DNA of 64,000 nt from Thermostichus lividus PCC 6715. Lineage in GTDB: Bacteria; Cyanobacteriota; Cyanobacteriia; Thermosynechococcales; Thermosynechococcaceae. The notes under the pieces were generated by a model, which was given only the letters and a program-made list of their open reading frames with translations, was not told where the DNA came from and searched no databases. The stretch spans positions 124,001-188,000 of the forward strand of contig NZ_CP018092.1 in assembly GCF_002754935.1 (NCBI RefSeq), in the 5' to 3' direction. Positions within the stretch are counted from its first letter, which is position 1. The number at the start of each line of letters is the position of its first letter. This document shows positions 1,004 to 33,953 of the stretch, one piece after another. Made by a program: the position numbers and the translations under genes.

Positions 1004-2097
1004 CTCACTCCGAAGTAAGTGACATTGGGCATGATCTCTGAGCAGATGATCGCACAGGACTAAGGCCACCATGGCCTCTACCATGGGCACCGCTCGAGGT
1101 AAGACACAGGGATCATGCCGCCCTTTTGCCGCTAGGATAGTTTCTTCTCCCGCTTGATTCACGGTTTTTTGGCGTTGGCCAATGGTTGCGGTGGGCTTAA
1201 AGGCCACTCGCAAAATAATATTTTCACCGTTGGAAATCCCCCTTGAATGCCGCCAGAACGGTTGGTGCGGGTGCGAATACGGCCTGCTTGGTCGGCATAG
1301 AATTCATCGTTGTGCTCCAGACCTGTGAGGAGGGTGCCCGCAAACCCAGAGCCAATTTCAAACCCTTTGCTGGCGGGCAAGGACATGAGTGCCTTAGCGA
1401 GGTCTGCCTCTAGCTTGTCGAACACTGGGGAGCCTAGCCCTACGGGCACATTGCGAGCCACACATTCAATGACACCGCCAATGGAGTTGGCCTGCCGCCG
1501 GATCGCATCCACAAGGGCAATCATCTGCTCGGCGGTGGTGGGGTCGGGGCAGCGCATGATGTTGGCCTCCACTGCGGTGGCGGTGACGGTGTCGGGATCG
1601 ACCGTGGCTTCAATGTCTTTAACTCGCTTAACGTAGGCAATGATTTCAATCCCGGCCACCTGGGTTAAAATTTTGCGGGCGATCGCCCCTGCGGCCACCC
1701 GCCCAATGGTTTCACGAGCGGAGGAACGACCTCCTCCCTGCCAGTTGCGAATGCCGTACTTACCGTCATAGGTGGCATCGGCGTGGGAGGGACGATAGAC
1801 CTGTGCCATATCGGCGTAGTCAGCGGGACGGGGATCCTGATTGCGCACCAAAATGGCAATGGGAGTGCCGAGGGTTTTGCCCTGAAAGACTCCGGAGATA
1901 ATTTCGCAGCGATCGCCCTCTTGGCGTGGTGTTGTCAGGCGGCTTTGACCGGGGCGACGGCGATCCAACTCTTTTTGAATATCTGCTTCACAAAGGTCAA
2001 GTTGCGGCGGGCAGCCATCCACCACGACCCCCACCCCTCCCCCGTGGGACTCCCCAAAAGTTGTGACCCGAAACAAATGCCCAAAGGTATTCCCCAT
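971..2097 (-). CDS. aroC: Chorismate synthase, with a one-base frameshift near the 3' end
   Basis: Converts 5-enolpyruvylshikimate-3-phosphate to chorismate, the last step of the shikimate pathway, using reduced FMN. The start at 2097 gives [19 protein letters not shown], the normal N-terminus; a longer in-frame start at 2115 is unlikely. The motifs [20 protein letters not shown] and [12 protein letters not shown] are present. After GGIQGG the frame breaks: the C-run at 1238-1242 has five bases where six would restore the frame. Translation would otherwise stop at 1159 after a nonsense tail. The next frame down to 971 supplies the rest of the enzyme ([18 protein letters not shown]... [17 protein letters not shown]). 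The restored protein is about 375 residues, near the usual 360. aroC is a core gene, so a sequencing error is more likely than a real pseudogene. Confidence 0.9.
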
Positions 2098-20258: not shown

Positions 20259-20561
20259 GTTTAATCAAATTAATCTTGAGTTGGTTTGTTGAGTTTTGTT
20301 GATGGTTTGAATTAGAAAGTTGTTGGCTATTTGTTCATTTTTTTCAAGTCATTAACTTTTCTGAAGTTTTCTTTCATAATTAGGTCGTCAAACCTTAATA
20401 TAATCATCACATCACATCATTCTTGTAGTGGTGCAGGATATTTGCAGCCGTGTGGAGCCTTGTCGCCACAGCAGGCCAGCAAGGTGATGTCTTAACTTAC
20501 GTGCTGGCGATCCTTGGGGTTCTGCGGATCTTGGGGCAAAGGCGGCAGTTTGGAGGTCGGT
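20259..20561. promoter_or_regulatory. AT-rich region with the probable pix operon promoter
   Basis: About 300 bases. The first 150 are strongly AT-rich, beginning with the palindromic TTAACTTAAGTTTAA just after the ferredoxin stop. A perfect TATAAT at 20399-20404 is a candidate -10 box for the pix operon; no clear -35 box is visible, which is common for activator-dependent cyanobacterial promoters. GGAGG at 20552-20556 is the pixG ribosome site. Confidence 0.45.
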
Positions 20562-21797
20562 ATGATGACATCAGATCGGGGGTTGAGCAGTAGCACGGAG
20601 CCGCAGTTTGTAGATGCGGTGCAGCCGGAGCGTCTTTTGCAACAACTGGCAACGTCGGGGGGGACAGGGTGCTTCAAGCTAACGGTACAGCAGCAGCAGT
20701 GGTTTTTGTATCTGCATCAAGGCAGTCTTATTTATGCCACCCATAGTATTGATCCGGGCGATCGCTTCGAGCGACACCTGCGGCGTTTGAGTCAGCAGGT
20801 GCCAAGACTAGATCGCGATTTACGAGCACAGGTACGACAGCAGTGGGAGTTGGCGAATACCCCCACCCCCATTTACGAATACGAAAGTCTGCGCTGGCTC
20901 CTCAAGGAAGGTATCATCACCCCTGAGCAGTTTCGCCAAGTGGTAGAGGGACTCATTCTAGAAGTCCTCGAATCATTTTTGCACCTGACGAAAGGGCAGC
21001 ACCAGCTTGTCTCCTACTTTGATGTTCCCATCGCTACTCATTTTGATACAGCGCGTTTAGTCGCTGCTTGTAAAGCTCAGATTCAGCAGTGGTTAAGCTT
21101 AGGGCACAAAATTACATCCCCGTTTCAGCGGCCCTACTTTTTTAGCAGTGCCCAAGTCAATCTGACGCCGGAACAACAGCAACGGTTAGGGTCAATGCTG
21201 CGGGGGTTTAGCTTCCGTCATTTGGCGGTACTGATGAATCAGGATGAAATTTCTCTGGTGCGCAGTCTCCTGCCCTTGATTGAAAAGGGGGCTGTTGTGG
21301 TGCGTGAACCCCAGCGTCCCTTTGATCTTCTCCCTAACTTTGATGCCAGTCTATTGCAGGAACTGGTGACCACAGAGGATGCTGACAGCCAAGATCTAAC
21401 CAGTGGCTTTTTCACCTCCCAAGTTCCCAACCGTACCTTTACCATTGTCTGCATTGACGACAGCCCTACCATGCTCAATGAAATCAAGCGGTTTTTGGCA
21501 GACGATGCGTTTCAGGTCATTGCCCTGAGTGATTCGGTTAAAGCATTAATGGAGGTGATGCGGCTCAAGCCTGATTTGATTCTGCTCGATGTGGGAATGC
21601 CTAACATTGATGGCTATAAGTTTTGTAAGGTCATTCGCAATCATCAACACTTTAAGTCTCTACCTATCATCATGGTTACGGGGAACACAGGGTTGATTGA
21701 CCGGGCAAAGGCACGCCTTGTGGGGGCAACAGACTACATGACCAAGCCCTTTACCCAAGCAGAGCTACTAAAAATGGTTTTTCAGTACCTAACGTAG
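20562..21797 (+). CDS. pixG: PatA/PixG-type response regulator
   Basis: 411 residues from ATG 20562 (GGAGG at 20552-20556). The N-terminal 100 or so residues form a DUF4388/PATAN-like domain (FKLTVQQQQWFLYLHQGSLI), the middle is helical, and the C-terminal receiver (about residues 290-411) has the acidic pair in IVCIDDSP, phospho-Asp343 in LILLDVGMPNIDGY, and the lysine in YMTKPF. In Synechocystis, PixG is the first regulator of the phototaxis operon. Here it heads the same gene order (G-H-I-J-L), which supports the name. It should receive phosphate from the CheA-like kinase at 25582. Confidence 0.85.
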   Translation: MMTSDRGLSSSTEPQFVDAVQPERLLQQLATSGGTGCFKLTVQQQQWFLYLHQGSLIYATHSIDPGDRFERHLRRLSQQVPRLDRDLRAQVRQQWELANTPTPIYEYESLRWLLKEGIITPEQFRQVVEGLILEVLESFLHLTKGQHQLVSYFDVPIATHFDTARLVAACKAQIQQWLSLGHKITSPFQRPYFFSSAQVNLTPEQQQRLGSMLRGFSFRHLAVLMNQDEISLVRSLLPLIEKGAVVVREPQRPFDLLPNFDASLLQELVTTEDADSQDLTSGFFTSQVPNRTFTIVCIDDSPTMLNEIKRFLADDAFQVIALSDSVKALMEVMRLKPDLILLDVGMPNIDGYKFCKVIRNHQHFKSLPIIMVTGNTGLIDRAKARLVGATDYMTKPFTQAELLKMVFQYLT

Positions 21798-21864
21798 TGG
21801 TGGATTGCCTGACCACTGTATATTGACATTTACTGATGGTTTTTATTGATTTTTGGGAGGCGGC

Positions 21865-22227
21865 ATGAGTACGGTCTTGGTTGTGGAAGATACCCCCTCA
21901 GAAATGGCTTTGATTGCCTCGTTTTTGAAGGACAGCGGCTATACGGTCATTTCAGCAACAGATGCCAAGGAGGCACTACAAAAAGTGACGCAGTACAAGC
22001 CGGATGTTGTGGTCACCGATGTGGTTATGCCGGGGATGAGTGGCTTTGAACTCTGCCGTAGTCTCAAGAAAAATCCGGAGACTGAAAAGTTGCCGATTAT
22101 TGTGTGTACGTCCAAAAATCAGGAGTTGGATCGTCTCTGGGCAATGAAGCAGGGAGCAGATGCCTACATCACGAAGCCCTTTAGTCGCGAGGATTTGTTG
22201 CGGGCGTTGAAATCAGTGGTGGTTTAG
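21865..22227 (+). CDS. pixH: CheY-like response regulator, PixH type
   Basis: 120 residues, a single receiver domain. The acidic pair is in VVEDTPSE, phospho-Asp52 in VVTDVVMPGMSGF, the Thr/Ser in IIVCTSK and the lysine in YITKPFSRED. No output domain. GGGAGG ends 5 bases before ATG 21865. In the Synechocystis phototaxis system PixH is the CheY-like protein counterpart to PixG. The gene is 67 bases after pixG and 2 bases before pixI. Confidence 0.88.
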   Translation: MSTVLVVEDTPSEMALIASFLKDSGYTVISATDAKEALQKVTQYKPDVVVTDVVMPGMSGFELCRSLKKNPETEKLPIIVCTSKNQELDRLWAMKQGADAYITKPFSREDLLRALKSVVV

Positions 22228-22229
22228 CT

Positions 22230-22737
22230 ATGACCCAAGCAGTTGCTGATGTTCATGTTAAGGGTCTGAGCGGGAGCGATGCCTATCTACGGCTCATCGT
22301 GAACGATCGCCTCACCGCATTAGTTCCCATGGTGGATGCCCAACAGGTGATGGTCGTTGCCCCTGACCAATTGACCGTGATGCCCAATATGCCGGGGCTA
22401 GTGATGGGCTTGCTGAACTACCGCAACCGCGTGGTTTGGGTTATTGATCTGGGTCAGTTATTGGGGCTAGACCCCCTCAGCAGCGATTGCCCCTACTATA
22501 CCGTTGCCCTCATACGGTTATCGGAAAAAACGGCTAGGTGTTGCCGTTAGCGATGTCCGTGGCATTTTACGTCTAGCTCCCGGAACGATTCAGTCGCCGG
22601 TGGGTACCGTGAGTGCGGCTTTGGTGCCCTATCTGAAAGGGTGCTGTCTGGTGGACGGCCAGATGTGTTTCGTGCTCGATGCTCAGGCGATCGCCAGTGC
22701 GCCCCTCGGGGCGATGACTCCTGTTGATGCTGGATAG
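22230..22737 (+). CDS. pixI: CheW-like adaptor PixI, with a one-base frameshift
   Basis: CheW-type scaffold that couples the photoreceptor to the CheA-like kinase. The first 97 or so codons (DAYLRLIVNDRLTALVPMVD, GLVMGLLNYRNRVVWVIDLG, YYTVALIRLSEK) are a normal CheW N-terminal half. The frame then runs out at a TAG at 22548-22550. The next frame continues with RLGVAVSDVRGILRLAPG and PYLKGCCLVDGQMCFVLDAQ to 22737. The break lies at the A-run 22525-22530: six A are present and five give a continuous protein of about 168 residues. The downstream half keeps full CheW character. Confidence 0.85.
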
Positions 22738-22768: not shown

Positions 22769-25579
22769 ATGACCACTGCTAAACCGCCCGTAGAGGTGCC
22801 TGAACTGCCCCCCTCGGTGATGAACTACCAGTTACCACCGCTGCCAGAGCAGCCAGCGTCAACACCGCAGGAGCACTTCAGCAAAGAACCAGTACCGCCC
22901 CCTAAGCCCAAGCAGTGGGGACTGCGGCCAAAGTTGATTACAACTGCCGTGGCTCTGGCAACCCTACCCATGGCGGTGGTGGGCTTCACGGCCAATGAAG
23001 TGACGCGCCAGCAACTCAGCCAGCAAGTGTTACAGCTACAGCAGCAGGGCACTAGAAGTGCCGCAATCCAGTTTGAGGCGTTTTTGCGCGATCGCCGTGG
23101 CGATATTCGGGTGCTGTCGTCTCTATTCAGCACTCGCTACGGCAGCGAACTACAGGCCGGGCAGCGGCAACCCCTACAGCAGGTGCTCAACCAGTTTTTA
23201 GATGCCTACCCCGCCTACGACAGTGCCGCAATTATTGCCAATGATGGCCGTGGCACAGTGATGGCACAATCCGCAGCGGGGAATAGATTAGCAAATAACA
23301 TCCTACAGAATCACGAGTACTTTAAGCTCGCCATTCAAACCCGTGGGCCGGTGATCACCGTTGAGCCAACCCTTTCGTTGCCGGATCGTCCCTTAGGGAT
23401 GTTTGTAGCGGCACCGCTGATCAACCCTCAGACCAATCAAATCACTGCGGTTCTGCGCTTACGGGTACCCCAAAGCAGTATTGATCAGTTTTTGAAAACC
23501 TATGGCCAAGGCGATCATCACGGATTTTACCTCGTGGAGCCAGGCGGGACAATCTTTGCGTCCTCGCTACCGGAATTACAGGGTCAGTCGCTGCAGAGCG
23601 TATTTCCCAAACTGGCTGAGCGACAGGCTACGGAAGCTGCCAATACCCTCACTGAAAAACGGCAGTCTGACGGGCGATCGCAAATGGTTAGCTCTACAAG
23701 CATCTCACAGCCCTTTGCCAGCATTGTTCTGAGTACCGATGAAGCCTACGCCCTCAGGCCACTGCAAAACCTGACGTGGTCGCTACTTTTGGGGATGGGG
23801 GGCACTGCCCTAGTAGCAGGGGCGATCGCCATCTACCTGAGCAACCGCGCCCTCAAGCCCCTACTGCAAGCGACCAAAGCAGTGACCCAAATTGGCCAAG
23901 GGGCACTGGACACCCGCATCCCAGTGCAGGGCGATGACGAACTTGCAACCTTGGGGCGCACCATTAACCAAATGGCTGAGCAGCTACAGGACTCCCTTGA
24001 ACAAGCAACGGCTAACGCTCGGCGAGCGCAGCAACTGCGGGATATTTCCTTGCGGCTTGCCCAGCAGCAGGATCGTCCCGCCATTCTCCAGACCCTTGTG
24101 GACGATGCCCGCGAAAGCTTGCAGTGTGATCGGGTGATTGTCTATGAGTTTGATGACAATTACATCGGCACAGTCGTTGCAGAGTCGGTTGGTCGCGAGT
24201 GGCCCAAAGCCCTTAATCAGGTGATTGATGATCCGTGCTTCCGGCAAAATTGGGTCAAAGCCTATGCCAATGGCCGTATTCAAGCCACCGCGGATATTCT
24301 CAAGGCCAACTTAACAGAGTGCCACCTCAAGCAACTTGCCCCCCTCAAGGTTCGTGCCAACCTAGTGGTGCCCCTACGGGTAGAGCAGAAGTTAATTGCC
24401 CTCCTGATTGCCCATCAGTGCAGCGAACCGCGCTCTTGGCAGCAAGTAGAAATTGACTTTTTCCAGCAGCTTGCCACCCAAGCAGGTCTGGTGTTGGAGC
24501 GGGCTAACTTTCTGGCTCAAACCATCGCTGCCCAGCAAAATGCTGAACGCCTTGCCCAAGAGCAGCGTGCACTCACCGAACGGATTCAATCGCAGCTCAT
24601 CAACTTGCTGAGCGAGGTGGAGGCCGCCTCCCAAGGGGATTTGACGGTACGGGCAGACATCACCGCCGATGAAATTGGCACCGTTGCCGATATTTTTAAC
24701 TCCCTGATTGAGAGCCTGCGGGACGTGGTGGTGCAAGTGAAGGCCACCACCGCAAAGGTGAACGCTCAGCTCATGGATGATGAGGCTGCCATGAAGCAGT
24801 TGGCCGAGGAGTCGTTGCGCCAAGCCAAGAAAGTGAAACGGATGCTAGAGGCGGTGGAGCAAATGTCCACTTCGATCCAATTGGTGGCCGACAGTGCCAA
24901 CCAAGCAGCGGATGTGGCGCGGCAAGCCTCAGAGCGCGCCCTCAGCAGTGGGGAAACCATGGATGAAACGGTGCAGAGTATTCTGCATCTGCGCGAAACT
25001 GTCGCCGAGACCGCCAAAAAAGTCAAACGGCTCGGGGAATCCTCGCAACAGATTTCCAAGGTGATCTCCCTGATCAACCAAATTGCGCTGCAAACGAACC
25101 TTTTGGCCATCAACGCCAGTATTGAGGCGGCGCGGGCGGGCGAAGAAGGCCGTGGGTTTGCGGTGGTTGCGGAAGAGGTGGGGGAACTGGCAGCGCGATC
25201 GGCGGCGGCAACCCGCGAAATTGAGCAAATTGTGGAAACGATTCAGCAGGAAACAAACGAGGTGGTACGCGCCATGGAAACCGGCACCGCTCAGGTGGTG
25301 GAAGGCACCCGTTTAGTGGAAGTGACCAAGGAAAACCTTGAGCAGATTGTGCAGGTGTCGCAGCACATTGATGAGTTGGTGCAGTCGATTTCCCAAGCTA
25401 CTATCTCCCAGTCGCGCACCTCGAATACGGTGAATACCCTGATGCACGATATTGCCAAGGTGTCGGAGGGGATGTCCGCCACATCGAAACATATTTCCGA
25501 ATCCTTGCAAGATACGGTGGCTGCTGCGCAGGAGTTACAAACCTCAGTCAACATCTTTAAGGTCAGCTCTGAGGTGTAG
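22769..25579 (+). CDS. pixJ: Cyanobacteriochrome phototaxis receptor PixJ (methyl-accepting)
   Basis: 936 residues: a cytoplasmic Pro-rich N-terminus, membrane segment 1 (about 53-70, [16 protein letters not shown]), a periplasmic Cache-like sensor, membrane segment 2 (about 338-358), HAMP, a GAF domain (about 420-590), a second HAMP-like segment, and a C-terminal MCP signalling hairpin with the tip [30 protein letters not shown]. The GAF domain has Cys518 in the ECHLKQL motif (bilin attachment) and Cys490 in DPCF, a DXCF motif. The 28-residue spacing equals that of Cys494 and Cys522 in Thermosynechococcus PixJ, which forms phycoviolobilin and switches between blue- and green-absorbing states. 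The same photochemistry is therefore expected here. It directs twitching phototaxis through the adjacent kinase. Confidence 0.93.
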
Positions 25580-25581
25580 CA

Positions 25582-28389
25582 ATGCTGGAACTCGGCCCTG
25601 ACGAAGCCGTTCGCTTGCAGTTTTTAGAGGAGGCACAAGACTACCTACAAACCATTGAGGCAGGAGTTCTAGAACTGGGCGCCACACCTAGCACTCAAGT
25701 CATTGATGGGGTGTTGCGCGCAGCCCACTCGATTAAGGGTGGCGCAGCCATGATGGGCTTTACGCTCCTCAGTGACTTGGCGCATCGCCTTGAGGATTTT
25801 TTTAAGGTGCTGCGATCGCGCCCCTGTGACGATGCTGAGACCCAGCACCTGCTGCTGCGGGCAGTGGATCAATTGCAATCGGTGATTGTCCTCAATCGGC
25901 AAGGACTGGAGCCAAATGCCGCATGGCTGCATACCCAAGCTGAGCCAATTTTTAACCAGCTTCATGAGCGACTGGGCGATCCGAAGGCAGAGGATGAACT
26001 GTCACTGCTGAGTGGTGATGATGGCCATGCCATGCGGGTGGTTCTCTTTGAAACTGAAGTCGAGGCGTGCCTGCAACGCTTAGAGGCGGTGATTCAAGAC
26101 CCCCAGCAGCCCTGTCTCAAGGAAGAGATGGCGATCGCCAGCCAAGAGCTAGAAGGCCTAGGGCAGATGCTAGAGATCCCTCAGTTTGCCCAGTTCTGTG
26201 CCACCGTTAGCGACTATTTGGCTCAGCCTGAGTGCGATATTTCTGCCATGGCTGCCAGCATTATCCAACAGTGGCGACGGTGCCAAGCCCTTGTGCTCAC
26301 CGGGCAACTAGAGGCATTACCAACAGCCTTGACCCTAGACCTGCCCGAGGAGGCTGAGGAGCAAACGGTGTTTGATCTGGGTCTAGACGACCTCAACCAA
26401 GAACTTGGGGTCGAGGACTTTGCCAGTGCCGAGGTCAACGGCTTCTCCTTGGACGATGTGCTACCCTCACTAGAGCCACCTGTTCCCTCCACTGCCCCAG
26501 CTCCCACTGTCGTGAGTGCCCCACCTAAGCCGGACACCCAAGAGCCGAGGGAAATGACGGTGCGCGTGGCGGGGCATCACCTTGATGTGATCAGCGACCT
26601 GCTGGGGGAATTGTTGATTGAGTGCAATGGCCTAGACCTCCAGCGTACCCGTCTGCACCGATTACTCGATACCTTAAAGCAAAAGGTGCGCCTCCTTGAG
26701 CAGGCAAATTTTCGTTTGCGCACTGAGTACGATCGCGTCAGTGGGACGGTTGGTGCCACCCATCCGATTAGTGCTCAGGCTCAGCATGGGTTTGACAGCC
26801 TTGAATTTGATCGCTATACCGATGTGCATCTTCTCTCCCAAGAGGTGATGGAAACCATTGTTCAAATTCAGGAGATTACCAGCGATCTTGATCTTGGCCT
26901 TGAGGATACCGAGCGCACGAGCCGTGATCTCAATCGCACCGCCAAGCAACTGCAAGTGCGCTTTACCCAAGTACGGATGCGCCCCTTTGCGGATCTGGCC
27001 AATCGCTATCCCCGCGTTATTCGCGAGTTGAGTCAAGAGCATGGCAAAACAGTTGATCTTGTCATTGAAGGCAGTCACATCCTAATTGATCGCACGGTGC
27101 TGAGCGTGCTTGCGGATCCGCTGATGCACCTTGTGCGCAATGCCTTTGACCATGGCATTGAACCCGCACCGGAGCGCGAGGCGCTTGGCAAGCCGCCGAC
27201 AGGTACAATTTTGCTCAAGGCCGCCTATCGCGGCAACCAAACCGTGATTACAGTGGCCGATGATGGCCGCGGCCTTAACCCTGAGAAAATTCGCCAAACT
27301 GCCAGTCGTCTTGGGGTGCCCGCAGGATGGCTGGCTACCGCCAGCGATCGCGATCTGTTCGAGCTGATTTTTGAGCCGGGCTTTTCCACCGCAACTCAGG
27401 TGTCGAATTTATCGGGGCGGGGGGTTGGGATGGATGTGGTGCGTACCAACCTCAAGCAGATTCGGGGCGACATTCACATCAACAGTACACCCAATCAAGG
27501 GACGACCTTTACGATTACAATTCCCTACACCCTTTCCGTTGTACGGGTGCTGCTGGTGGAGGCTGCCCATATGTTGCTGGCTGTACCAACAGAAGCCGTG
27601 GCCGAGATGGTCTTAGCGGATCAGTATTCACCAGTTGAAACCCTTGGCCACCCCCTCATTGACTGGGAAGGCTATATGACCCCAGTGGTGGCGCTTGATG
27701 AGTACTTTCAGTTTTCCCGTCCCTATCGTCCTGTTGAGGCAGAAGGCACCCCAATCATTAACGACCCCACCCTGATGATTCTTGCCCAAGGAGACATGGC
27801 TCTTGCGGTCAAGGTGGATCGCTATTGGGGCGAGCAGGAGGTGACAATCCGGCACGTCGATAGTGACTTGGCGTTACCCCACGGCTTTAGTGGCTGCACG
27901 ATTTTAGGAAATGGTCGCATTGTGCCCTTGATCGACCCGCTGGCTCTCCTCGATGGGTTTGAGAAGGGGCGCGATCGCCCCTTACGCACCACCGACGCGT
28001 TGCCCCTCTCGACCCAAGACACAATTCTAGTTGTTGATGACTCGGTAAATGTGCGGCGTTTCTTGGCCACTACCTTAGAAAAAGCAGGCTACCACGTTGA
28101 GCAAGCCAAGGATGGCCAAGATGCCATTGATAAACTAGAGGCGGGCTTACAGGTGAATGCCTTGGTCAGCGACATTGAAATGCCGCGGCTGGATGGCTTT
28201 GGCGTGCTGGCGCACATTAAACGCATTCCCCATTGCCACAACGTGCCGGTGGTGATCCTCACCTCCCGCACCGGACAAAAACACCGCCAGTTAGCGCAGC
28301 ATCTGGGGGCAGCGGCCTACTTCAGTAAACCCTTCCGCGAGGCAGAACTCCTAGAAACCCTTGCCCAGTTGATTCGCCATGGTACTTAA
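25582..28389 (+). CDS. pixL: CheA-like hybrid histidine kinase PixL
   Basis: 935 residues. The Hpt domain carries His49 in AAHSIKGGAAMMGF. A long acidic linker leads to a dimerisation region, a CheA ATPase domain (PLMHLVRNAFDHGIEPAPER; VADDGRGLNPEKI; NLSGRGVGMDVVRTN), a CheW-like regulatory domain, and a C-terminal receiver with phospho-Asp864 in LVSDIEMPRLDGFG and the lysine in YFSKPFREAE. It should be controlled by PixJ through the CheW-like proteins and pass phosphate to PixG and PixH, steering type IV pili. It starts 2 bases after pixJ. Confidence 0.92.
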   Translation: MLELGPDEAVRLQFLEEAQDYLQTIEAGVLELGATPSTQVIDGVLRAAHSIKGGAAMMGFTLLSDLAHRLEDFFKVLRSRPCDDAETQHLLLRAVDQLQSVIVLNRQGLEPNAAWLHTQAEPIFNQLHERLGDPKAEDELSLLSGDDGHAMRVVLFETEVEACLQRLEAVIQDPQQPCLKEEMAIASQELEGLGQMLEIPQFAQFCATVSDYLAQPECDISAMAASIIQQWRRCQALVLTGQLEALPTALTLDLPEEAEEQTVFDLGLDDLNQELGVEDFASAEVNGFSLDDVLPSLEPPVPSTAPAPTVVSAPPKPDTQEPREMTVRVAGHHLDVISDLLGELLIECNGLDLQRTRLHRLLDTLKQKVRLLEQANFRLRTEYDRVSGTVGATHPISAQAQHGFDSLEFDRYTDVHLLSQEVMETIVQIQEITSDLDLGLEDTERTSRDLNRTAKQLQVRFTQVRMRPFADLANRYPRVIRELSQEHGKTVDLVIEGSHILIDRTVLSVLADPLMHLVRNAFDHGIEPAPEREALGKPPTGTILLKAAYRGNQTVITVADDGRGLNPEKIRQTASRLGVPAGWLATASDRDLFELIFEPGFSTATQVSNLSGRGVGMDVVRTNLKQIRGDIHINSTPNQGTTFTITIPYTLSVVRVLLVEAAHMLLAVPTEAVAEMVLADQYSPVETLGHPLIDWEGYMTPVVALDEYFQFSRPYRPVEAEGTPIINDPTLMILAQGDMALAVKVDRYWGEQEVTIRHVDSDLALPHGFSGCTILGNGRIVPLIDPLALLDGFEKGRDRPLRTTDALPLSTQDTILVVDDSVNVRRFLATTLEKAGYHVEQAKDGQDAIDKLEAGLQVNALVSDIEMPRLDGFGVLAHIKRIPHCHNVPVVILTSRTGQKHRQLAQHLGAAAYFSKPFREAELLETLAQLIRHGT

Positions 28390-28879
28390 AACCCGTCGCC
28401 GTCGCCAACCTCAGCCCGTTGTCATGGAGCAGTTCTTGACGTTTTTGATCCGTCAGGAACAGTTTGCCGTGCCCATGGCACAAGCCAATCGCGTCATTCC
28501 CCTGCCTCCCATCTACGGCGATCGCTCTCGCCGGGGGGTGGGTCTGGTCAATCATGGCGATCGCGAAATTTTAGTGATTGAGATTGGCCGCTGCCTCTTT
28601 GCCGAGCCGTTGTCTGCGGCTGAAACCGAGAAACTCAAGTTCTTGCTGATTTTGCAGCCAGACCTTGCAGGCGAGTGGCTAGGCTTTCCGCTCGTGGATC
28701 CGCCAATTATTGAGCGGGTTCCCCAAGACCACATCCATCCCATTCCCAAAAACTATCTGCATTGGGGCAATATTCACCACGTCAGCTCCCTAATGGTCAG
28801 CAGCACTAATGACCCCAATCTGCCCCCCATCTTTATTGTGGATGTGCCCCAGGTGCTAGCCTCTCTCAAGACCCTGTAA
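28379..28879 (+). CDS. Second CheW-like protein at the end of the pix operon
   Basis: 166 residues overlapping the end of pixL by 11 bases, so translationally coupled. The CheW pattern is recognisable: EQFLTFLIRQEQFAVPMAQA, then a loop with GVGLVNHGDREILVIEIGR, then FLLILQPDLAGEWLGFPLVD. It diverges from the PixI protein and is probably an additional adaptor or a phosphatase-like relative. If the first methionine is not used, ATG 28424 (MEQFLTF) is the likely alternative. Confidence 0.75.
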   Translation: MVLKTRRRRQPQPVVMEQFLTFLIRQEQFAVPMAQANRVIPLPPIYGDRSRRGVGLVNHGDREILVIEIGRCLFAEPLSAAETEKLKFLLILQPDLAGEWLGFPLVDPPIIERVPQDHIHPIPKNYLHWGNIHHVSSLMVSSTNDPNLPPIFIVDVPQVLASLKTL

Positions 28880-32416: not shown

Positions 32417-33706
32417 CTACGCAACGGGCTGAAGCCGCGTTGCTTCCCTTTTCCCTTGAGCTGTCACCCACAACTTAATGCGGGTGGGGGCAGTCAAAGA
32501 CCCCCTACCAACTCCGCTCAGACTCAATCCAAGCATCGTCGCTACTTTACGCAGGATGTTGGCAGCGCCATTACAATCCGCGTTGATGTACCAATTCTGA
32601 GCAGTCCTGAACAAGCCTCGCTTCGTCCGCTTCCCCGATGACTTCCAGCTATCAGGTTTTTCACCGAATGTCGGCAAAAAGTCACCATCCACAAACGATG
32701 CTTGAGAGGTATACGACTCCTCAGTTTCAACAAACTCTATCCCGTACTGCTCCGCTAACTGAGCAATCCGCTCTTTCAGTCTCGCAGTTGGGATCTGCAC
32801 AAACTTCTGATTGGTCTTCTTGCCTAGGTTGGAACCGTCCTTTTGCTGCTGGTTCCAGCCAAATACAATCCGACCAATCCGGTTACGGGTGCAATGGTCA
32901 ATCACAATCCTAGCCGCTTTGTTCACTGCATCACGTATCTGCCGATTGCGCTTCTCAGTGAGTTGTGCCAGTCGCTTTGACCAAAAGCCTTGAGGCTTAC
33001 CTTCTTTCAGCTTGGCAATTTGCTTGTTGTACCAGCGGTTCAATGATTTCAGGTGCAGTCCATCCACAATGAAGCTGGTTCCCACATTGCTGACGCAGGT
33101 GAGCCAGTTGTTTAATCCCGAATCGATGCCCAGCACCCGCATCGGGTCTACATCAATCTGAACGGGGTTCAGACGATAGACAAACTCAGCGTAGAAACAC
33201 CCATTGCGCGGCAGAATCCGCAGTTCCTTGATGTCCTCAAATTTGAGATTGGAGGGCATGGGGACAGTGAACGAATCAATCTGAAACCACACTTTCACTA
33301 ACTGCCCCAGCGGAACCCGGATCATCCCATCAACCAACTTCAGCGCTTGTTTGGGATAGCTGACTACTGCCAACCCTCCCTTCTTGCGGTAATTTGGCAT
33401 CCTGGGTTTCTCTGCCAGTTCTCCACCTCGCCACAGTTTCAACAATGCTCGGTAGGACTTAAACGACTCGTAGACCGAAATCAAGGTTTGCTGTGCAGCC
33501 TGGGAGTAAAGAGCTTGGAAGTGCTTACTGGTCTTGTATTCGTAACTCAGGCTATGCTTGCCAATCCACTGCCCGGTCTTAAAGTGCAGTTGACGAGCAT
33601 AGTAGATGCCCTGATTGGTTAGCTTGTTTGCCTCAGAGCAGACAAATTCCATCACCCCCTTAAGTTCGTTATTGGGGTTGAGCAAAACTTGCTGACATCC
33701 AAACAT
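32417..33706 (-). CDS. TnpB with altered RuvC-II site and no zinc ribbon (copy A)
   Basis: 429 residues from MFGCQQVLLNPNNELKGVM; an upstream extension of the frame exists only because of the tnpA deletion. RuvC-I Asp195 is in GIDSGLNN and RuvC-III Asp377 in INADCNGAANI. At the usual RuvC-II position the sequence reads RIVFGWNQ, with Gly283 where glutamate is expected. Glutamates 327, 329 and 330 stand just before the SYTSQ motif (FVETEESYTSQASF). The four zinc-ribbon cysteines are absent; that segment is FVDGDFLPTFGEKPDSWKSS. This layout fits TnpB groups in which the catalytic glutamate has moved. The gene is intact. Confidence 0.88.
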   Translation of the reverse strand: MFGCQQVLLNPNNELKGVMEFVCSEANKLTNQGIYYARQLHFKTGQWIGKHSLSYEYKTSKHFQALYSQAAQQTLISVYESFKSYRALLKLWRGGELAEKPRMPNYRKKGGLAVVSYPKQALKLVDGMIRVPLGQLVKVWFQIDSFTVPMPSNLKFEDIKELRILPRNGCFYAEFVYRLNPVQIDVDPMRVLGIDSGLNNWLTCVSNVGTSFIVDGLHLKSLNRWYNKQIAKLKEGKPQGFWSKRLAQLTEKRNRQIRDAVNKAARIVIDHCTRNRIGRIVFGWNQQQKDGSNLGKKTNQKFVQIPTARLKERIAQLAEQYGIEFVETEESYTSQASFVDGDFLPTFGEKPDSWKSSGKRTKRGLFRTAQNWYINADCNGAANILRKVATMLGLSLSGVGRGSLTAPTRIKLWVTAQGKREATRLQPVA

Positions 33707-33763
33707 GGTGAGTTTATGCAACAATTGTCTACAGCGTAGCACAGATAGACAAACAGGTAAACT

Positions 33764-33953
33764 ATGGACTACCAGAAAAGCCGCAGTGCATCGAATTAAG
33801 GGGCGAACTGCACAGTTCCTCAGACAGGAATTCCCTAATCCATTAATGAAACTGCCGTCCATGTGGACATCCAGTTACTTTGTCTCAACGGCTGGCAATG
33901 TTAGCAGCGAAACAATTCAGCGCTACATTGAAGCTCAGGGCAAGAGTAATTGA
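33764..33953 (+). pseudogene. TnpA (Y1 transposase) with a 206-bp internal deletion
   Basis: Compared with the intact copy at 43225-43620, the start (MDYQKSR) and the 3' part (RIKGRTAQFLRQEFPNPLMK ... TIQRYIEAQGK) remain, but 206 bases between them are lost. The junction falls in the GTGCATCG at about 33784-33791. The HUH motif is deleted and the frame is shifted, so no transposase can be made. Copy A can move only with help in trans. Confidence 0.88.

Follow-up and report, generated by a model that had tools for sequence, protein, structure and literature searches.

PixJ Encoded by Thermostichus lividus PCC 6715 Is Very Probably a TePixJ Orthologue

The pixJ gene present in the 64,000-nucleotide stretch of the PCC 6715 genome that we analyzed (referred to here as the window) very probably encodes an orthologue of TePixJ, the photoreceptor of Thermosynechococcus vestitus (elongatus) BP-1; it lies in the conserved pixG-H-I-J-L-cheW gene order, and its sequence leads us to expect a TePixJ-like mechanism. 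The reading frame starts with an ATG codon, comprises 936 codons without internal stop codons (Table 1), and stays in a single frame from end to end when aligned with its relatives. HAMP, GAF and MCPsignal matches in Pfam mark the deduced protein as an MCP-type receptor. Its cysteine residues are found at positions 453, 490 (DDPCF), 518 (ECHLKQL), and 551, and both the Cys518-His519 pair and the DPCF motif (residues 488-491) that characterize DXCF cyanobacteriochromes are present. The original prediction had singled out Cys490 and Cys518 as lying 28 residues apart, and both their coordinates and their residue numbers are correct in the translated sequence.

Table 1. Features of the pix gene cluster and of its photoreceptor gene in the window.
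Feature	Position in the window	Strand	Remarks
pixG-type response regulator (DUF4388 + receiver)	20514..21797	+	ORF start set mechanically; translation may begin further downstream
pixH-type CheY-like receiver	21853..22227	+	ORF and Pfam
pixI (CheW), first part	22230..22550	+	Stops prematurely behind six consecutive A; 106 codons
pixI (CheW), second part	22522..22737	+	Next frame, to the stop codon
pixJ	22769..25579	+	dCache-HAMP-GAF-MCP signalling photoreceptor, 936 aa
PixJ Pfam domains			dCache_1 83-311, HAMP 357-408, GAF 435-575, MCPsignal 714-898 (residues)
Putative bilin-binding GAF of PixJ (residues 435-575)	24071..24493	+	Pfam GAF
Cys490 codon, second cysteine, DXCF motif (DPCF)	24236..24238	+	Pairs with TePixJ Cys494
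Cys518 codon, predicted canonical bilin-anchoring cysteine (CHL)	24320..24322	+	Pairs with TePixJ Cys522
pixL-type hybrid CheA (Hpt, HATPase, CheW, receiver)	25582..28389	+	ORF and Pfam
Second CheW-like gene after pixL	28379..28879	+	Same place in BP-1 and G026

A phmmer search retrieved the GAF domain of TePixJ as the top PDB chains (3vv4, E 4.3e-67; 4fof/4glq, 1.2e-66; 2m7u, 2.4e-66). The alignment with a known PixJ that had been proposed as a check was run against the BP-1 protein; identity amounts to 634 of 934 aligned residues (68%), and the cysteines at BP-1 positions 494 and 522 pair with those at 490 and 518, so that the spacing is indeed that of TePixJ. Within the GAF domain, 99 of the 147 residues corresponding to TePixJ residues 437-583 are identical (67%), while the remaining 48 positions differ. 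The TePixJ residues D492, C494, C522, H523, Q526, and N535 are linked or adjacent to the bilin (PMC6955287), and all six are kept in the PCC 6715 protein as D488, C490, C518, H519, Q522, and N531. In a GAF tree with 20 rows, the window sequence falls among the PixJ rows and is separated from the SesA/B/C-like rows of its own genome (100/98). The view that we are dealing with an orthologue and not with the identical protein is thus borne out by the extent of identity, the placement in the GAF tree and the best PDB match; the sequence data support orthology to TePixJ, with a resemblance far beyond chance. Domain order, the DPCF/CHL cysteines 28 residues apart, the six pocket residues and the gene order are shared with TePixJ; the two proteins differ in about a third of their residues and in their numbering, which in BP-1 begins three codons upstream at a GTG.

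Some part of PixJ was matched in each of the 29 genomes subjected to the family search, and near full-length matches extending from the N-terminus were obtained from every genome of the genus searched, 11 in total with that of PCC 6715. A single long match, from residue 23 almost to the end, was present in G016, a genome from another genus. The closest full-length relative found is the PixJ protein of G026, which is 80% identical; it shares the gene order, but comprises 927 instead of 936 residues, and the neighboring pixI gene is in one frame. Every one of the 11 genomes of the genus, that of PCC 6715 among them, retains the DXCF and CHL motif pair. DXCF was present in 13 of 14 aligned PixJ-like rows (11 from the genus, one from G016 and one from G018, the last with two such motifs); the remaining row, L021, carries DPCI in its place and was left out of the 20-row tree. 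The PixJ-like protein L020 from G018 possesses two DPCF GAF domains in tandem, and in each of them CYL takes the place of CHL.

The gene order pixG-H-I-J-L-cheW is the same in the window, in BP-1, and in G026, with pixI split in the window record; the names PixG, PixH, PixI, and PixL follow the Synechocystis system. If the protein operates like TePixJ, its GAF domain would attach phycocyanobilin at Cys518 and isomerise the bilin to phycoviolobilin. In the dark state, Cys490 would add to C10 of the bilin to yield a blue-absorbing form; blue light would flip the 15,16 double bond and break the bond to Cys490, giving rise to a green-absorbing form in a reversible manner. The change would then be relayed by the linker to the signalling tip of the MCP domain; together with the CheW protein PixI, this tip would control the PixL kinase and the receivers PixG and PixH and thereby bias the type IV pili. 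Bilin attachment, isomerisation, colors and kinase coupling are in this scheme extrapolated from TePixJ and from other pix systems. One match to the bilin reductase family PF05996, three to the T2SSE family (PilB/PilT-type ATPase) that are devoid of internal stop codons, and two to the PilC-type platform family, both within one and the same frame and likewise without internal stops, were found in the genome and make bilin supply and pilus machinery plausible in PCC 6715.

Two further observations concern other loci. An MCP-like match with an internal TAA codon (L007; G000:C1:1704221-1705075) has another group of chemosensory loci (L008, L039, L040, L046) in its vicinity. An IS605 OrfB/TnpB-like protein with OrfB_IS605 and Cas12f1-like TNB domains is encoded at 32417-33862 of the window on the minus strand, and the genes next to it resemble, by eye, those for sugar-nucleotide enzymes.

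The Translational Start of PixJ

The original prediction had noted that the protein is four residues shorter before Cys490 than its BP-1 counterpart. This count is correct when the BP-1 protein is read as 940 codons from a GTG codon, the start with which the Cys494 numbering agrees. However, three of the four extra residues are the M-P-T that precede an ATG shared by both genes and hence reflect the choice of the start codon; insertions and deletions before Cys490 account for a net difference of one residue. The four-residue difference is therefore mostly a matter of numbering.

In the window and in G026, the upstream GTG is immediately followed by an in-frame TGA, so that it is unusable as a start codon in PCC 6715, and L014 and L019 possess no upstream GTG but an in-frame TAA. 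The ATG start is common to all 11 members of the genus, while the GTG start is unavailable in four of them. Furthermore, an AGGA motif lies upstream in both the window and BP-1 (L017/L098), at a distance of 10 bases from the ATG and of a single base from the GTG. Taken together, the position of this motif and the unavailability of the GTG codon suggest that the ATG is perhaps the true start of PixJ in BP-1 as well.

Frame Breaks in the PCC 6715 Genome Record

Directly upstream of pixJ, the pixI gene is represented by two separate pieces among the 11 CheW-family matches present in the genome. When pixI was compared in 11 relatives (L009-L019; G018 and G010 were left out), 10 of them proved to have it in one frame; in the exception, L019, which stems from a 220-contig draft, it is also broken, but at a different place. 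The pixI gene of G026 carries five A at the site of the break and is in one frame.

As a control, we compared 1,006 BP-1 ORFs (1.2 Mb) with 400 kb of the 2.66-Mb PCC 6715 genome (G000 bases 1-400000; L050-L069) and with 380 kb of G026, requiring at least 55% identity and at least 70% coverage of the best match. Frame changes affected 10 of 160 testable genes in the PCC 6715 record versus none of 119 in G026; pixI is not among the ten listed breaks. Seven of these are located at or near a run of at least five equal bases, q523 has such a run at a distance of about 36 bases, and q287 and q994 show no run of this length in the context of the break. Four of the ten were tested with NCBIfam and proved to concern chorismate synthase, shikimate dehydrogenase, GlmU, and citramalate synthase. 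The aroC gene (window 1040-2073, minus strand) occupies two overlapping frames, the break falling between a T6 run and a C5 run, and the family search of the genome detected no second chorismate synthase, matching the split aroC copy only. A photoautotroph needs these biosynthetic enzymes, and most of the frame breaks in the record are for this reason likely to be sequence errors; the split in aroC probably is one.

We regard the frame break in pixI as probably an error of the same kind. A competing explanation, although an unlikely one, is that the frameshift is real and that the pathway is genuinely broken, in which case PixJ would be a sensor with a damaged output, a scenario compatible with its identification as a TePixJ orthologue. 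This explanation can draw on the split at six A in a gene that has five A and one frame in the closest relative, on the match of the CheW family to pixI in two pieces, and on the 196 (PMC9403480) or 321 (PMC7005997) pseudogenes reported for PCC 6715, numbers that fit sequence errors but could also reflect real decay. The record was moreover established with PacBio plus Illumina correction (PMC9120777), which argues against simple sequence errors. Against a genuine break speaks the excess of frame-broken genes over G026, and so does the finding that four of the ten breaks, all situated at or close to homopolymers, affect aroC, aroE, glmU, and the citramalate synthase gene; a photoautotroph lacking chorismate synthase, a family with no other match in this genome, is implausible. 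In addition, the record has a lower BUSCO score and a higher fragmented share than the strain described in PMC11450739 itself. Nine further CheW-family matches are present in the genome; one of them immediately follows pixL, but some form part of CheA-type proteins. The frame-break control led us to abandon, as the leading view, the reading of the pixI break as proof that the pathway is dead. Programmed slippage at the six A in pixI deserves little weight given the five A and single frame of G026.

Cysteine Spacing and the Predicted Photocycle

The spacing of the two cysteines had originally been taken as a mark of a blue/green receptor. Yet, 19 of 20 DXCF rows have a C[HY] pair at a distance of exactly 28 residues; the one row that does not is a DGCF sequence without a partner cysteine in a BP-1 protein (q45, position 386), which we took as a chance occurrence. 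Three other cyanobacteriochromes of PCC 6715 (L004, L005, L006), in which the GAF domain is combined with GGDEF and/or EAL domains, have the same spacing. Judged from their domain order, L004, L005, and L006 look like SesC, SesB, and SesA, respectively. The spacing is thus shared with proteins of which one resembles SesB, a protein that becomes more active in teal light (PMC9090330), and it does not hold as a mark of blue/green photoconversion. The blue/green prediction follows instead from orthology and from the conservation of the pocket, on which grounds we consider a phycoviolobilin-type blue/green photocycle likely for the window PixJ.

TePixJg binds phycocyanobilin, and both isomerisation and reversible ligation of the second cysteine have been shown for it (PMC11284453). 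Another DXCF protein isomerises its bilin without a need for the second cysteine (PMC11284453), so that the DXCF motif and isomerisation are not strictly tied. Conceivably, an orthologous DXCF receptor could have acquired a shifted photocycle through substitutions in the pocket (e.g., blue/teal, or a phycocyanobilin/phycoviolobilin mixture with longer-wavelength photoproducts), given the number of GAF positions that differ from TePixJ and colors that are indistinguishable by cysteine spacing alone; the conservation of the six checked pocket residues and the position of the window row inside the PixJ clade render this quite improbable. With a blue/green photocycle retained as the likely one, the absorbance maxima and the reversion rate may still differ from those of TePixJ in view of these substitutions. 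That the protein is a SesA/B/C-type c-di-GMP cyanobacteriochrome instead of PixJ, as the shared DXCF GAF domain and 28-residue spacing might suggest, is practically excluded by its domain order, since it ends in MCPsignal with no GGDEF or EAL match in Pfam, unlike the c-di-GMP outputs of the Ses proteins, and separate SesA/B/C-like proteins exist as L006, L005, and L004.

PixJ and Phototaxis

The original prediction had gone on to expect blue/green-controlled phototaxis in PCC 6715, a step that does not follow from the presence of the gene. The congeneric strains TA-1 and CL-1 carry the pixJ system and are nevertheless non-motile; truncation affects a pilL homologue in the former and pilC in the latter (PMC9403480). 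Conversely, T. vulcanus, whose wild type has pixJ deleted, still moves towards green light; its reversal under added blue light is mediated by SesA, SesB, and SesC, while the receptor for positive phototaxis was left open in that report (PMC9090330). In this group, pixJ accordingly neither guarantees blue/green-controlled phototaxis nor is it required for it. The role of PixJ elsewhere is varied: it is cited as the direction sensor in a Synechococcus elongatus isolate and as not responsible in Nostoc punctiforme (PMC9090330), pixJ knockouts reverse or lose phototaxis in other cyanobacteria, and PixJ dampens photophobotaxis in Phormidium lacuna (PMC13383048). Within the literature searched, which covers few subscription journals, we found no description of the phototactic behavior of PCC 6715 and no published account of its PixJ; the main text of PMC9953108 contains no word beginning with PixJ, while its reference list cites a TePixJ structure paper.

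Implications

The PixJ protein of PCC 6715 is an ordinary version of a well-studied blue/green receptor; with pixJ found in all 11 genomes searched of the genus and structures of the TePixJ GAF domain solved, its presence matters little by itself. What can be taken from our analysis concerns how such genes are read. The spacing of the DXCF cysteines should not serve as a color code, and frame breaks in the PCC 6715 record call for a check of the reads before lost function is deduced from them. It is highly doubtful that PixI is truly truncated and that an intact PixJ signals to PixL via the second, downstream CheW protein or not at all; if this were true, a blue/green receptor would be naturally uncoupled from its pilus output in PCC 6715. 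Among congeners, the presence of pixJ and phototaxis are separable.
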